DNA from: an uncultured Caryophanales bacterium
GTDB taxonomy: Bacteria; Bacillota_I; Bacilli_A; RF39; UBA660
NCBI GenBank assembly: GCA_946539445.1
Contig: CAMNHK010000007.1
Span: forward strand, 1-53,857
DNA length: 53,857 nucleotides
Direction: 5' to 3'
In this document: piece by piece, positions 18,381 through 21,691 of the stretch
Layout of the letters: each line of letters begins with the position of its first letter
Numbering within the stretch: the first letter of the stretch is position 1
Notes under the pieces: generated by a model
What the model saw: only the letters and a program-made list of their open reading frames with translations
Database searches by the model: none
What the model was told of the DNA's origin: nothing
Translations under genes and position numbers: made by a program

Positions 18381-18413
18381 TTTAATATTCATTTAATCTT
18401 TATAAGATAAAAT
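18381..18413 (+). promoter_or_regulatory. Candidate OmpR-type operator: TTTAAT-N5-TTTAAT plus -10
   Basis: TTTAAT at 18381-18386 and 18392-18397, five bases apart (one helical turn between repeats), then 10 bases and TAAAAT (18408-18413). The layout matches the second site at 20353-20385 and recalls the CiaR site (TTTAAG-N5-TTTAAG). It suggests autoregulation. A -10 here would leave a very short leader (about 10 bases). Confidence 0.5.
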
Positions 18414-18429: not shown

Positions 18430-19125
18430 ATGAAAGTATTAATAATTGAAGATGAATACAATTTAGCAGACGTTATCGCAACACGTCTAAAGAAAGAAAA
18501 CTATCAAGTAAAGATAGAACAAGATGGCGAAGAGGGCTTATATGAAGCACTTAATGGGACCTATGACTTGATTCTATTAGATGTAATGTTACCTAGTAAA
18601 AATGGTTTTGAAATATTAAAAGAAATAAGAGAAGAAGAACCAGACTTACGAGTAATCATGCTAACAGCAAAATCCGAACTAGAAGATAAATTAAATGGTC
18701 TTCAAACAGGAGCTGACGACTATATTACCAAACCTTTTCACATGGAAGAATTAGTCGCAAGAGTAAACATACAGCTTAGAAAAAGCAATCAATCTCAACA
18801 GAAAGATTATTTAGAATTTGGAAACATTCAACTAAATATAAAGAATACAACCATTACTTGTACAACAACCGGCGAAGTAATGGAAATAGGAAAAAAAGAA
18901 TATGAACTATTAGAGTATTTTATGAATAATCAAAATCAAATAATATCCAAAGATCAAATCTATACAAAAATATGGGGAATGGACAATGAAATAGAATCCA
19001 ATAACTTAGAAGTATATCTATCGTTTATTCGTAAAAAATTACGACTAATAGGAGCCAATGTAACCATTAAAGTGAGTAGAGGATTAGGATATAAATTAGA
19101 GGTGAACGATGAAGAAACTAAATAA
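18430..19125 (+). CDS. OmpR/PhoB-family response regulator
   Basis: A 231-residue response regulator. The receiver domain carries the acidic cluster E7/D8/E9, phosphoacceptor D51 in LLDVMLP, T79 and K101 in ITKPF; the C-terminal part (about 127-225) is a winged helix of the OmpR type with the ..YLSFIRKKL...VSRGLGYKL wing. It should bind direct repeats as a dimer. I start at 18430 because AGGTGG (18420-18425) is well placed; the in-frame ATG at 18412 precedes that site. The kinase gene overlaps its 3' end by 17 bases. The architecture resembles CiaR, but orthology is not proven. Confidence 0.95.
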   Translation: MKVLIIEDEYNLADVIATRLKKENYQVKIEQDGEEGLYEALNGTYDLILLDVMLPSKNGFEILKEIREEEPDLRVIMLTAKSELEDKLNGLQTGADDYITKPFHMEELVARVNIQLRKSNQSQQKDYLEFGNIQLNIKNTTITCTTTGEVMEIGKKEYELLEYFMNNQNQIISKDQIYTKIWGMDNEIESNNLEVYLSFIRKKLRLIGANVTIKVSRGLGYKLEVNDEETK

Positions 19126-20332
19126 TAAAATCAAATATACTATATTTATTATCTTAACCATATCGATATCCATCATATTAAGCGTATTCTTTTCTATGAA
19201 TTACATAAAGTCCTATACAACGATTAAAAATCATTTAATAAGTATGTCATCGAAAGAAATGCCAATTCCCCCAAAAGAGCAAGATTCCTTTGCACCGGAT
19301 CATCCAGTAGAAGATAAAAATCCAAGATTTATGGATGCTAGTGTCTATACCGTGATAGTAAAGAATGATGAAATCTTACAAATCAACAGTCATACTCAAG
19401 AAGAAACCGTACCAAGTTCGATTTCAAAAGAAGCTAAAAGAATTCTAAAAGCAAAAAAAGAATCATGTATCTATATTGGAAATATAATATGGGAAAGATA
19501 TTCCTATCGATATGAAAAGAATGATCGAATTATTATTACAGATAATCAAAAAACCAATCAAGAGCTTCAGCAATCCTTGCTTATTTCCCTTTTCCTATTT
19601 GTTCTATTTGAATCTCTTGCCTACGGAATAAGTCATTTAATCGCTAGTTGGATCATCAAGCCAGTAGAAATAACCTTTAAAAAGCAAAAACAATTTATTG
19701 CAGATGCATCTCATGAATTAAAAACACCCCTAGCAGTCATCATGGCAAGTGCCGATGCTTTAGAAAATGATAAAAATAAAAAATGGTTAAAGAATATTCA
19801 AAGTGAATCGGAAAGAATGAATCAATTAATCAAAGATTTACTAGATCTAGCCAAACTAGAAAATGAAGAAGTAATCATTCTTCAAGAAAAACAAGATATC
19901 TCAAAGCTAGTAGAAAAAGCCGTCGTACCATTCGAAAGTTTAGCTTTTGAAAAAAACATTAAATTAGACTATGAAATACAAGAAAAAATAGAATGGCTAT
20001 GTAATGCTAGTGAAATCAAACAGTTAATCGCCATATTAATGGACAATGCGATTAAACATAGTATAGAAAATGGTCAAATAACTCTAACCGTAAAAAAAGA
20101 AAAAGAAGAATTAAAAATAGAAGTAATCAATGAAGGAGAACCAATTCCAAAAGAAGAAGAAGAAAAAATATTTGAACGCTTTTATCGGATTGATAAAGCA
20201 AGAAATAGAAAAGAAAATCGATATGGATTAGGCCTTGCAATTGCGAAAAACATAGTATTAAGACATAAAGGAGAAATAAAGGCTCATTCAAAAGATGGAA
20301 AAACAACTTTCAAAGTAAAATTAAAAAAATAA
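19109..20332 (+). CDS. Sensor histidine kinase
   Basis: A 407-residue membrane kinase that pairs with the regulator just upstream. Order: TM1 (about 8-30), an extracellular sensor region of about 120 residues, TM2 (about 155-182), then a HisKA domain with phosphoacceptor H202 in DASHELKTPL and a HATPase domain with the N-box (ILMDNAIKHS), F-box (ERFYRIDKARNR) and G2-type loop (RYGLGLAIAKNIV). AGGTGA lies before the ATG. The sensor domain is rich in proline and charged residues, and I cannot name its signal. Confidence 0.95.
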   Translation: MKKLNNKIKYTIFIILTISISIILSVFFSMNYIKSYTTIKNHLISMSSKEMPIPPKEQDSFAPDHPVEDKNPRFMDASVYTVIVKNDEILQINSHTQEETVPSSISKEAKRILKAKKESCIYIGNIIWERYSYRYEKNDRIIITDNQKTNQELQQSLLISLFLFVLFESLAYGISHLIASWIIKPVEITFKKQKQFIADASHELKTPLAVIMASADALENDKNKKWLKNIQSESERMNQLIKDLLDLAKLENEEVIILQEKQDISKLVEKAVVPFESLAFEKNIKLDYEIQEKIEWLCNASEIKQLIAILMDNAIKHSIENGQITLTVKKEKEELKIEVINEGEPIPKEEEEKIFERFYRIDKARNRKENRYGLGLAIAKNIVLRHKGEIKAHSKDGKTTFKVKLKK

Positions 20333-20352
20333 AAGCGAGTTTTTCGCTTTTT
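20331..20352 (+). terminator. Intrinsic terminator of the two-component operon
   Basis: AAAAGCGA (20331-20338), loop GTTTT, TCGCTTTT (20344-20351), then a T-tract. The T-tract merges into the first TTTAAT half-site of the next operator. Confidence 0.88.
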
Positions 20353-20385
20353 TTTAATTTTGATTTAAGTTTCGCCTCTTACAAT
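20353..20385 (+). promoter_or_regulatory. Second OmpR-type operator and promoter: TTTAAT-N5-TTTAAG plus TACAAT
   Basis: TTTAAT at 20353-20358 and TTTAAG at 20364-20369, five bases apart, then exactly 10 bases and TACAAT at 20380-20385. The spacing to the -10 is identical to that of the site at 18381-18413. It would place the activator next to the -35 region of a promoter starting RNA near 20392. Confidence 0.5.
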
Positions 20386-20391
20386 AAATAT

Positions 20392-20578
20392 AGAAAAGGA
20401 AGTGATAAAAAGAATCATAAAAAAAGAAAAACCAATAAAAAAATAATAAAATTAATATACATAATGATGCCTACTAAGAAAGGAGAGTAGATAAATAATA
20501 TTAATACTCTACAACAATTACACTCTATAAAAATATAAAGTCTCGAATAAAAGAAGAATTAATAATTCTTCTTTTTTA
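20392..20578 (+). ncRNA. Candidate regulator-controlled small RNA (about 190 nt)
   Basis: A stretch without a convincing gene between the predicted promoter at 20353-20385 and a strong terminator at 20549-20575. The best internal reading frame is an eight-codon ATG frame (20464-20490) that lacks a ribosome-binding site. A strong Shine-Dalgarno-like AAAGGAGAG is present at 20479-20487, but no start codon follows at a usable distance. A non-coding RNA is therefore the simplest reading. The target is unknown; alr lies directly downstream but has its own extended -10 and ribosome-binding site. Confidence 0.35.
20549..20578 (+). terminator. Strong intrinsic terminator
   Basis: AAAAGAAGAATT (20549-20560), loop AAT, AATTCTTCTTTT (20564-20575), then T. 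A 12-base-pair stem that belongs to no protein gene. Confidence 0.88.
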
Positions 20579-20587
20579 TGATATAAT
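20579..20587 (+). promoter_or_regulatory. Extended -10 promoter of alr
   Basis: TG, A, then TATAAT at 20582-20587, directly after the terminator, 15 bases before the alr start. Confidence 0.65.
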
Positions 20588-20602
20588 GAATTAGGTGATA
20601 AA

Positions 20603-21691
20603 ATGAGAAATACAATCTTAGAAGTGAATACAGAAAAATTTTTAAATAATATTGATAAAATAAGAGCTTTTAGTGGAAATAAAATGATTATGCCAATTAT
20701 CAAGGCCAATGCCTATGGTACCTATATAAATAAAAACTTAAGAATCTTAAATTTCTTTCAAATTGTAGCCGTAGCAGAAGTACAAGAGGCTGTAGAAATA
20801 AGAAAACTCGGATACTTAAAAGAAATATTTGTACTAAATCAACCTTCGATAGAAGAATTACAAGATATTTATAACTATCGGATAACAATTGGATTAAGTG
20901 AAAAAGAATTTTTAAAACAAGTGTATCTTCCCATCAAAGTACACCTAGAAATTGAAACAGGAATGAATCGTACAGGAATCAAATTAGAAAATTTAAAAGA
21001 ATTTATGGAAGATATAAAAACAAATCAAAACATAACAGTAGAAGGTATATATACCCATTTTTCTTCTGCGGATAATGATGATGAGTATACGAAAAAACAA
21101 ATCAATGTTTTTCAGAATGCAATCGATATAGTAAAGAAAGATTATAATCTAAGATATATTCATTGTAGTGCCTCCAATGGACTTCTTCGATTCCCAGAGA
21201 CAATATCCAATACCATTCGTCCCGGAATTATTATGTATGGATATGAATCTTTTAAAGGAGCCAAAGATATTATTCCAATAGAGCCAATAACCACTCTAAA
21301 AACAAGAATAACGTATTTAAAAGAAGTAGAAGAAGGCGAATCAATTAGTTATAATCGTAGATTTACAACAGACAAGCCAATGAAAATAGCAACCATTCCA
21401 ATCGGCTATGCAGATGGATTAAGAAGAGAATTAACCAATCAAGGAGAAGTGATTGTAAAAGGGGAAAAAAGGAAAATATTAGGATCAATTTGTATGGACA
21501 GTTGCATGATTGATGTTACTGGATTAGATGTCAAAGTAGGAGATCCTGTTACCATTTGGGATAATGAATTAATAACAGTAGAAGAGATAGCAGAAAAATG
21601 TAACACTATCAATTATGAAATATTATGTACCATATCACCACGAGTAGAACGCGTTTTTATGGAAGATAATAAAATCATTTATCGATTATAA
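20603..21691 (+). CDS. alr: Alanine racemase
   Basis: A 362-residue PLP enzyme that makes D-alanine for peptidoglycan and teichoic acid. The PLP lysine is K34 in PIIKANAYG, the second catalytic base Y250 in SYNRRF. Other family landmarks are EIETGMNRTGI, THFSSAD, IRPGI..YG and IPIGYADG, with the usual C-terminal beta domain (ILGSICMDSCMIDVT). The length is normal. AGGTGA before the ATG and the extended -10 at 20579 support the start. The 37 bases to the next gene contain no terminator, so a two-gene unit with DUF362 is likely. Confidence 0.95.
   Translation: MRNTILEVNTEKFLNNIDKIRAFSGNKMIMPIIKANAYGTYINKNLRILNFFQIVAVAEVQEAVEIRKLGYLKEIFVLNQPSIEELQDIYNYRITIGLSEKEFLKQVYLPIKVHLEIETGMNRTGIKLENLKEFMEDIKTNQNITVEGIYTHFSSADNDDEYTKKQINVFQNAIDIVKKDYNLRYIHCSASNGLLRFPETISNTIRPGIIMYGYESFKGAKDIIPIEPITTLKTRITYLKEVEEGESISYNRRFTTDKPMKIATIPIGYADGLRRELTNQGEVIVKGEKRKILGSICMDSCMIDVTGLDVKVGDPVTIWDNELITVEEIAEKCNTINYEILCTISPRVERVFMEDNKIIYRL

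Follow-up and report, generated by a model that had tools for sequence, protein, structure and literature searches.

The window analysed here is a 53,857-nt stretch of an assembly in contigs (77% complete, 1.37 Mb) that we label G000, its relatives being G001, G003 and so on. The genes around the two-component system stand in the order PAP2-regulator-kinase-RNA-alr-DUF362, where the RNA is a predicted transcript without a gene in the interval 20333-20602, which separates the histidine kinase gene and alr (Table 1). The response regulator gene likely starts at ATG 18430, which is preceded by the Shine-Dalgarno (SD) sequence AGGTGG, and TAAAAT is found at 18408-18413, 10 nt 3' of the first operator. 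The open reading frame (ORF) list puts the regulator start at 18412, an ATG that lies partly within the -10 box predicted for the operator promoter. On the far side of the interval, alr has its own extended -10 element, TATAAT, at 20582-20587. The sole Rfam match in the window is a T-box (RF00230, 13802-14001, 133 bits) upstream of aspS; searching the window at gathering score gave no match for the unit that we describe below.

Table 1. Coordinates of genes, regulatory elements and RNA segments at the locus (positions of the window)
Feature	Position	Strand	Remarks
First operator TTTAATATTCATTTAAT	18381..18397	+	5' of response regulator gene
Response regulator, OmpR/PhoB-type	18430..19125	+	Pfam Response_reg + Trans_reg_C
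Sensor histidine kinase	19109..20332	+	Pfam HisKA + HATPase_c
Terminator of regulator-kinase operon	20331..20351	+
Second operator TTTAATTTTGATTTAAG	20353..20369	+	direct repeat, TTTAAT-N5-TTTAAG
-10 box TACAAT	20380-20385	+	exactly 10 nt from second operator
Predicted geneless RNA, ~187 nt	20392..20578	+	homologous units in relatives
SD1 AAAAGGAAG	20394..20402	+	predicted 5' end (+3 to +11), no ATG after
Conserved A/T leader stretch AATAAAATTAATATACATAA	20445..20464	+	leader similarity to G014
SD2 AAAGGAGAG	20479..20487	+	no start codon; position matches small-gene SD of sister species
C/U-containing segment TACTCTACAACAATTACACTCT	20505..20526	+	weakly similar to geneless RNA of G001 (PAP2-DUF362)
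Intrinsic terminator of unit	20549..20578	+	hairpin + U-tract
alr	20603-21691 (20582..21691 with promoter)	+

Operators and promoter geometry

Both operators match the strict motif TTTAATNTTNATTTAA, which was found twice in the window against 0.08 expected; none of 100 shuffles reached two. The whole 1.37-Mb assembly holds three copies (backwards control, none), two of which flank the two-component system while the third precedes a glycosyltransferase gene. Across the genus, the kinase is present in 17 of 39 genomes, and 12 of these 17 carry the exact operator about 700 bp 5' of the kinase, where the regulator gene has its promoter. An operator directly after the kinase occurs in 11 species (this genome, G003, G034, G014, G027, G001, G013, G017, G023, G010 and the MAG RGIG4822), with an SD sequence 22-26 nt 3' of it in every one except RGIG4822. 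Searching for a combined operator, SD and TGAT pattern recovered the post-kinase site in 9 of 39 genomes (backwards control, one match in 39 genomes) and yielded three other loci, namely two ordinary genes and a second geneless unit in G001. A stricter, 46-nt promoter pattern proved too stringent for use and was dropped. In the window, the T-run of the kinase terminator extends into the first half-site of the second operator (20331-20369). Terminator and operator are fused elsewhere as well, the half-site lying within the 3' arm of the hairpin in G017, G003, G034, G014, G027 and G001.

The hexamer at N10 after the second repeat reads TA...T in 31 of 39 operator sites of the genus, against 0-6 at other offsets. 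The -10 box behind the second operator has exactly this spacing and places the predicted RNA start 7 nt further on, at 20392, the same start that the original prediction had assigned to this operator and its promoter. A generic sigma-70 scan did not list the promoter, as activator-type promoters that have no -35 box are expected to escape such a scan.

This layout recalls that of the CiaR-dependent csRNAs of the streptococcal CiaRH regulon (PMC3091779, PMC8186281), in which small RNAs with CiaR-type promoters are driven by a two-component system (PMC3091779). The csRNA prediction rule reads TTTAAG-N5-TTTAAG-N10-TATAAT, where the TATAAT tolerates up to two mismatches and a terminator must follow within 250 nt, and the csRNAs measure 51-202 nt (PMC3091779). 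The window unit likewise pairs a two-component regulator with a TTTAA-N5-TTTAA direct repeat and a -10 box at N10 (one mismatch), is intergenic, has its terminator within 250 nt and, at ~187 nt, falls inside the csRNA size range. In contrast to the csRNAs, its first repeat ends in T and not in the critical G, a position at which mismatched candidate sites were discarded in csRNA prediction (PMC3091779), and the RNA is A-rich, unstructured and provided with SD sequences, with no anti-SD (CCUCC-type) stretch. The lineage also differs from that of the CiaR streptococci, and the likeness of the OmpR/PhoB-type regulator to CiaR is one of promoter layout. Judged by two of the criteria tested, the G in repeat one and an anti-SD stretch, the unit is not a csRNA, but its promoter is csRNA-like.

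The predicted RNA and its leader

A transcript starting at 20392 would reach the U-tract of a second intrinsic terminator, and its predicted length agrees with the approximately 190 nt originally proposed. The hairpin, previously described as 12 bp at 20549-20575, consists of a perfect inverted repeat of 13 nt (20549-20561/20563-20575; -9.6 kcal/mol, z -3.4) followed by T6 with the A-U closing pairs counted. It was missed by a generic terminator scan because the scan requires three G-C pairs and the hairpin has two. As the kinase gene has a terminator of its own, this second terminator would have nothing to stop unless transcription starts in between. The earlier view that the interval holds no convincing gene was borne out: no ORF of at least 40 aa begins within 20333-20602 on the + strand, and the longest ORF in the unit, about 29 codons from a GTG, has poor SD spacing.

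Two SD sequences characterize the leader. SD1 lies near the 5' end, which is itself predicted, and has no ATG after it, with a GTG close by; the start codon after SD1 varies among species. SD2 begins 85 nt after SD1, with no ATG, GTG or TTG within 11 nt, and is the only strong SD lacking a start codon in the noncoding DNA of the window, where 18 SD-like sites have a start codon and the other four without one are plain AAAGGA. The original prediction suggested that this SD2 could act as an anti-target or a decoy. An anti-target role is not sustained, as the site corresponds to the second SD of a leader that precedes a small membrane-protein gene in six sister species.

The leader is also the most conserved part of the RNA. 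When the window leader (20392-20465) was compared with G014, G017 and G034, 0, 1 and 3 of 400 dinucleotide shuffles were as good, respectively, and the similarity to G014 exceeded all 400 shuffles whether SD1 was included or excluded. This homology holds although the kinases are just 45-49% identical, and the three matches are meaningful because the position next to the kinase agrees. Plain DNA similarity of the interval against 59 genomes was set aside, consisting mostly of chance matches to AT-rich or terminator sequence. The covariation that had been sought across relatives did not appear: RNAalifold on ten aligned leaders returned no consensus pair and no covariation. In the 3' part, the C/U segment of G000 is weakly similar to the geneless RNA between PAP2 and DUF362 of G001 (16 of 500 shuffles as good), and the other pairs with G000 are weak; a 3' motif shared among geneless RNAs is retained as a lead only.

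Leaders with and without a gene in related species

In six species that form one clade (G003, G034, G014, G027, G001 and G013), the leader enters a small membrane-protein operon, and SD1 and SD2 lie 75-83 nt apart. By sequence reading, the small protein carries a single predicted membrane segment, its tail is rich in Pro and Asn, and a beta-helix-like protein comes next in most. In five others (this genome, G017, G023, G010 and RGIG4822 among the post-kinase sites) the leader is followed by a terminator and no gene. The original prediction had named a conserved coding signal among relatives as a finding that would speak against it; that objection half applies, since sister species do have a gene just after the leader and here that gene is absent. 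The window leader resembles those of small membrane-protein operons (the six species above, contig C27 of G000, and G028) in its operator, its -10 box and the ~75-83 nt to SD2, and it further shares SD1 at the 5' end and sequence homology with the post-kinase small-gene leaders. It differs from them in that its SD2 has no start codon or gene and the terminator comes next.

A small-gene operon under an operator of its own is retained on contig C27 of this genome. In small-gene leaders elsewhere, that of C27 and two of G028 among them, an SD without a start codon precedes the SD of the gene, so gene-free SDs recur among these leaders. Two of them, L238 (G000 contig C27) and L254 (G028 contig C12), open with a short 5' hairpin (GTGAAAG..CTTTCAC and TGTGAAA..TTTCACA, respectively) ahead of the start-less SD. 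We rejected the idea that the operon had moved from the window locus to C27 and left its leader behind, the C27 and window leaders not being similar.

Two more geneless operator-driven units of ~180 nt immediately follow PAP2, one in G001 and one in G061. Since PAP2 and DUF362 flank both the window block and the G001 unit, the latter may correspond in position to the window unit. In both units (L150 at G001:C2:117380, - strand; L175/L196 at G061:C57:3411), complementary arms enclose pyrimidine-rich stretches, and each unit has a terminator; at the threshold applied, G061 yielded no match to the kinase.

On a tree built from the joined regulator and kinase, which leaves several forks open and contains two long-branched rows, the gene-bearing state occupies a single clade (one change, support 86/96) and the geneless state four separate branches around it (four changes). 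The spread of the geneless state over four branches argues against a simple recent loss and falls short of proving that this state is ancestral. Most species of the gene-bearing clade have tandem operators after the kinase, the first of which yields a short unit that offers no usable start codon, an arrangement that would fit capture of a gene behind an older unit. The only close geneless pair, G023 and G010, differs by about 10 changes in 180 nt against a fourfold-site rate of about 5% (21/394), with operator, SD2 and terminator stem unchanged. This is near the fourfold-site rate, and so no strong constraint is visible in this one pair, which has diverged little.

Interpretation of the unit and its regulon

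Because related species retain the unit at the same place, it probably represents a real regulator-controlled noncoding RNA beside the two-component system. We regard a geneless unit driven by the regulator, yielding a noncoding RNA with an SD1-stabilised leader, as the best reading of these sequence comparisons, with a probability of roughly 0.58; our confidence figures refer to readings that overlap and need not sum to one. The active response regulator would bind the TTTAAT-N5-TTTAAG repeat and activate the promoter that has its -10 box 10 nt further 3', and through the first operator it would raise its own gene as well. The RNA would start near 20392 and end near 20578, short of alr, its first ~95 nt forming a conserved, unstructured, A-rich leader with an SD at the 5' end and a second ~80 nt on, neither with a usable start. 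Most likely, a 30S subunit would bind the 5' SD and shield the RNA from 5' exonuclease, in the manner of the STAB-SD, the 5' mRNA stabiliser of cry3A (PMC4113751). Unlike the cry3A element, the leader here is attached to no gene, and 30S binding and stabilisation are predictions. A broader version, which we consider doubtful, would make the unit one of a genus-wide family of regulator-driven RNAs in which gene-free SDs are working parts that bind 30S subunits or titrate the anti-SD, and which can capture genes and so become their leaders. If true, these stable RNAs would bind or titrate while the envelope two-component system is switched on.

Two other readings are serious, if less likely, alternatives. 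The RNA could act in trans, as a functionally csRNA-like sRNA that pairs with mRNA start regions, perhaps through 20505-20526. Its promoter layout, size, intergenic place and terminator fit the csRNA rule, the geneless operator-driven RNAs beside PAP2 in G001 and G061 contain pyrimidine-rich stretches, and operators of the same type precede htrA and htpX in the genus. Yet a duplex scan over 47 start regions placed the window RNA and three other loci at the level of shuffled RNA, the RNA has no anti-SD sequence and no conserved structure, the leader and not the pairing segment is most conserved, and the htrA gene of this genome is without an operator. From the CiaR-like plan of the original prediction, the regulator-type promoter layout, the separate terminator, the lack of a gene and the post-kinase position in 11 species are supported, and csRNA-like action is not, given the missing anti-SD stretch, the shuffle-level duplexes and the lack of consensus structure or covariation. 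Alternatively, a small membrane-protein operon may have been lost here, leaving a functionless leader and a terminator. Repeated loss would then be needed, the geneless state falling on four branches and the gene state in one clade; moreover, the operator, both SDs (SD1 and SD2) and the terminator have stayed intact, and the dissimilar C27 leader leaves a recent move unsupported. This reading does account for the homology to sister gene leaders up to SD2, with SD2 at the matching place, for the separate small-gene operon, with an operator of its own, on contig C27, and for the near-neutral divergence of G023 and G010.

It is unlikely that the unit serves as an attenuated alr leader, the operator adding a regulated promoter and the weak terminator passing some transcripts: alr has its own promoter, the next gene differs in other species, and no alternative antiterminator structure was seen, even though alr is cell-wall related and starts 25 nt past the U-tract of a hairpin with only two G-C pairs. 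That the unit encodes a tiny peptide seems very unlikely. Several relatives have an ATG with 2-9 codons after SD1, and a GTG with about 29 codons is open here; against this, the ATG is lost in the window, length and residues vary among relatives, and certain relatives have no start at all.

The preferred reading, a regulator-driven noncoding RNA with a stabilised leader, would have wider bearing. The same geometry, apparent autoregulation and predicted geneless transcript in uncultured gut Bacilli suggest that such an arrangement extends beyond a single family or arose repeatedly, and leaders with and without a gene at one site offer a natural series for testing the role of the SD leader. An operator of this type is found before htrA in G061, G020, G008, G013, G003 and G001 and before htpX in G034 and G027; htrA of this genome has none. 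The occurrence of such sites before htrA in several genus members parallels the CiaR regulon, htrA being tied to CiaR in streptococci (PMC10197876). Because some of the htrA genes with the operator occur where this kinase is missing, another regulator may own part of these sites, a hint of a second regulator with the same recognition site. The operators before htrA in question, partly in kinase-less genomes, are those of L138, L141, L118, L184 and L190. A literature search for a two-component system with a CotH/VTC/DUF4956 operon found none. By sequence reading (L122-L130, on the 3' side of the kinase), the genus regulon takes in Pro/Asn-rich small membrane proteins, beta-helix proteins, a VTC-like/DUF4956-like operon, and glycosyltransferase-GtrA-like and ABC transporter genes, a set of envelope type.
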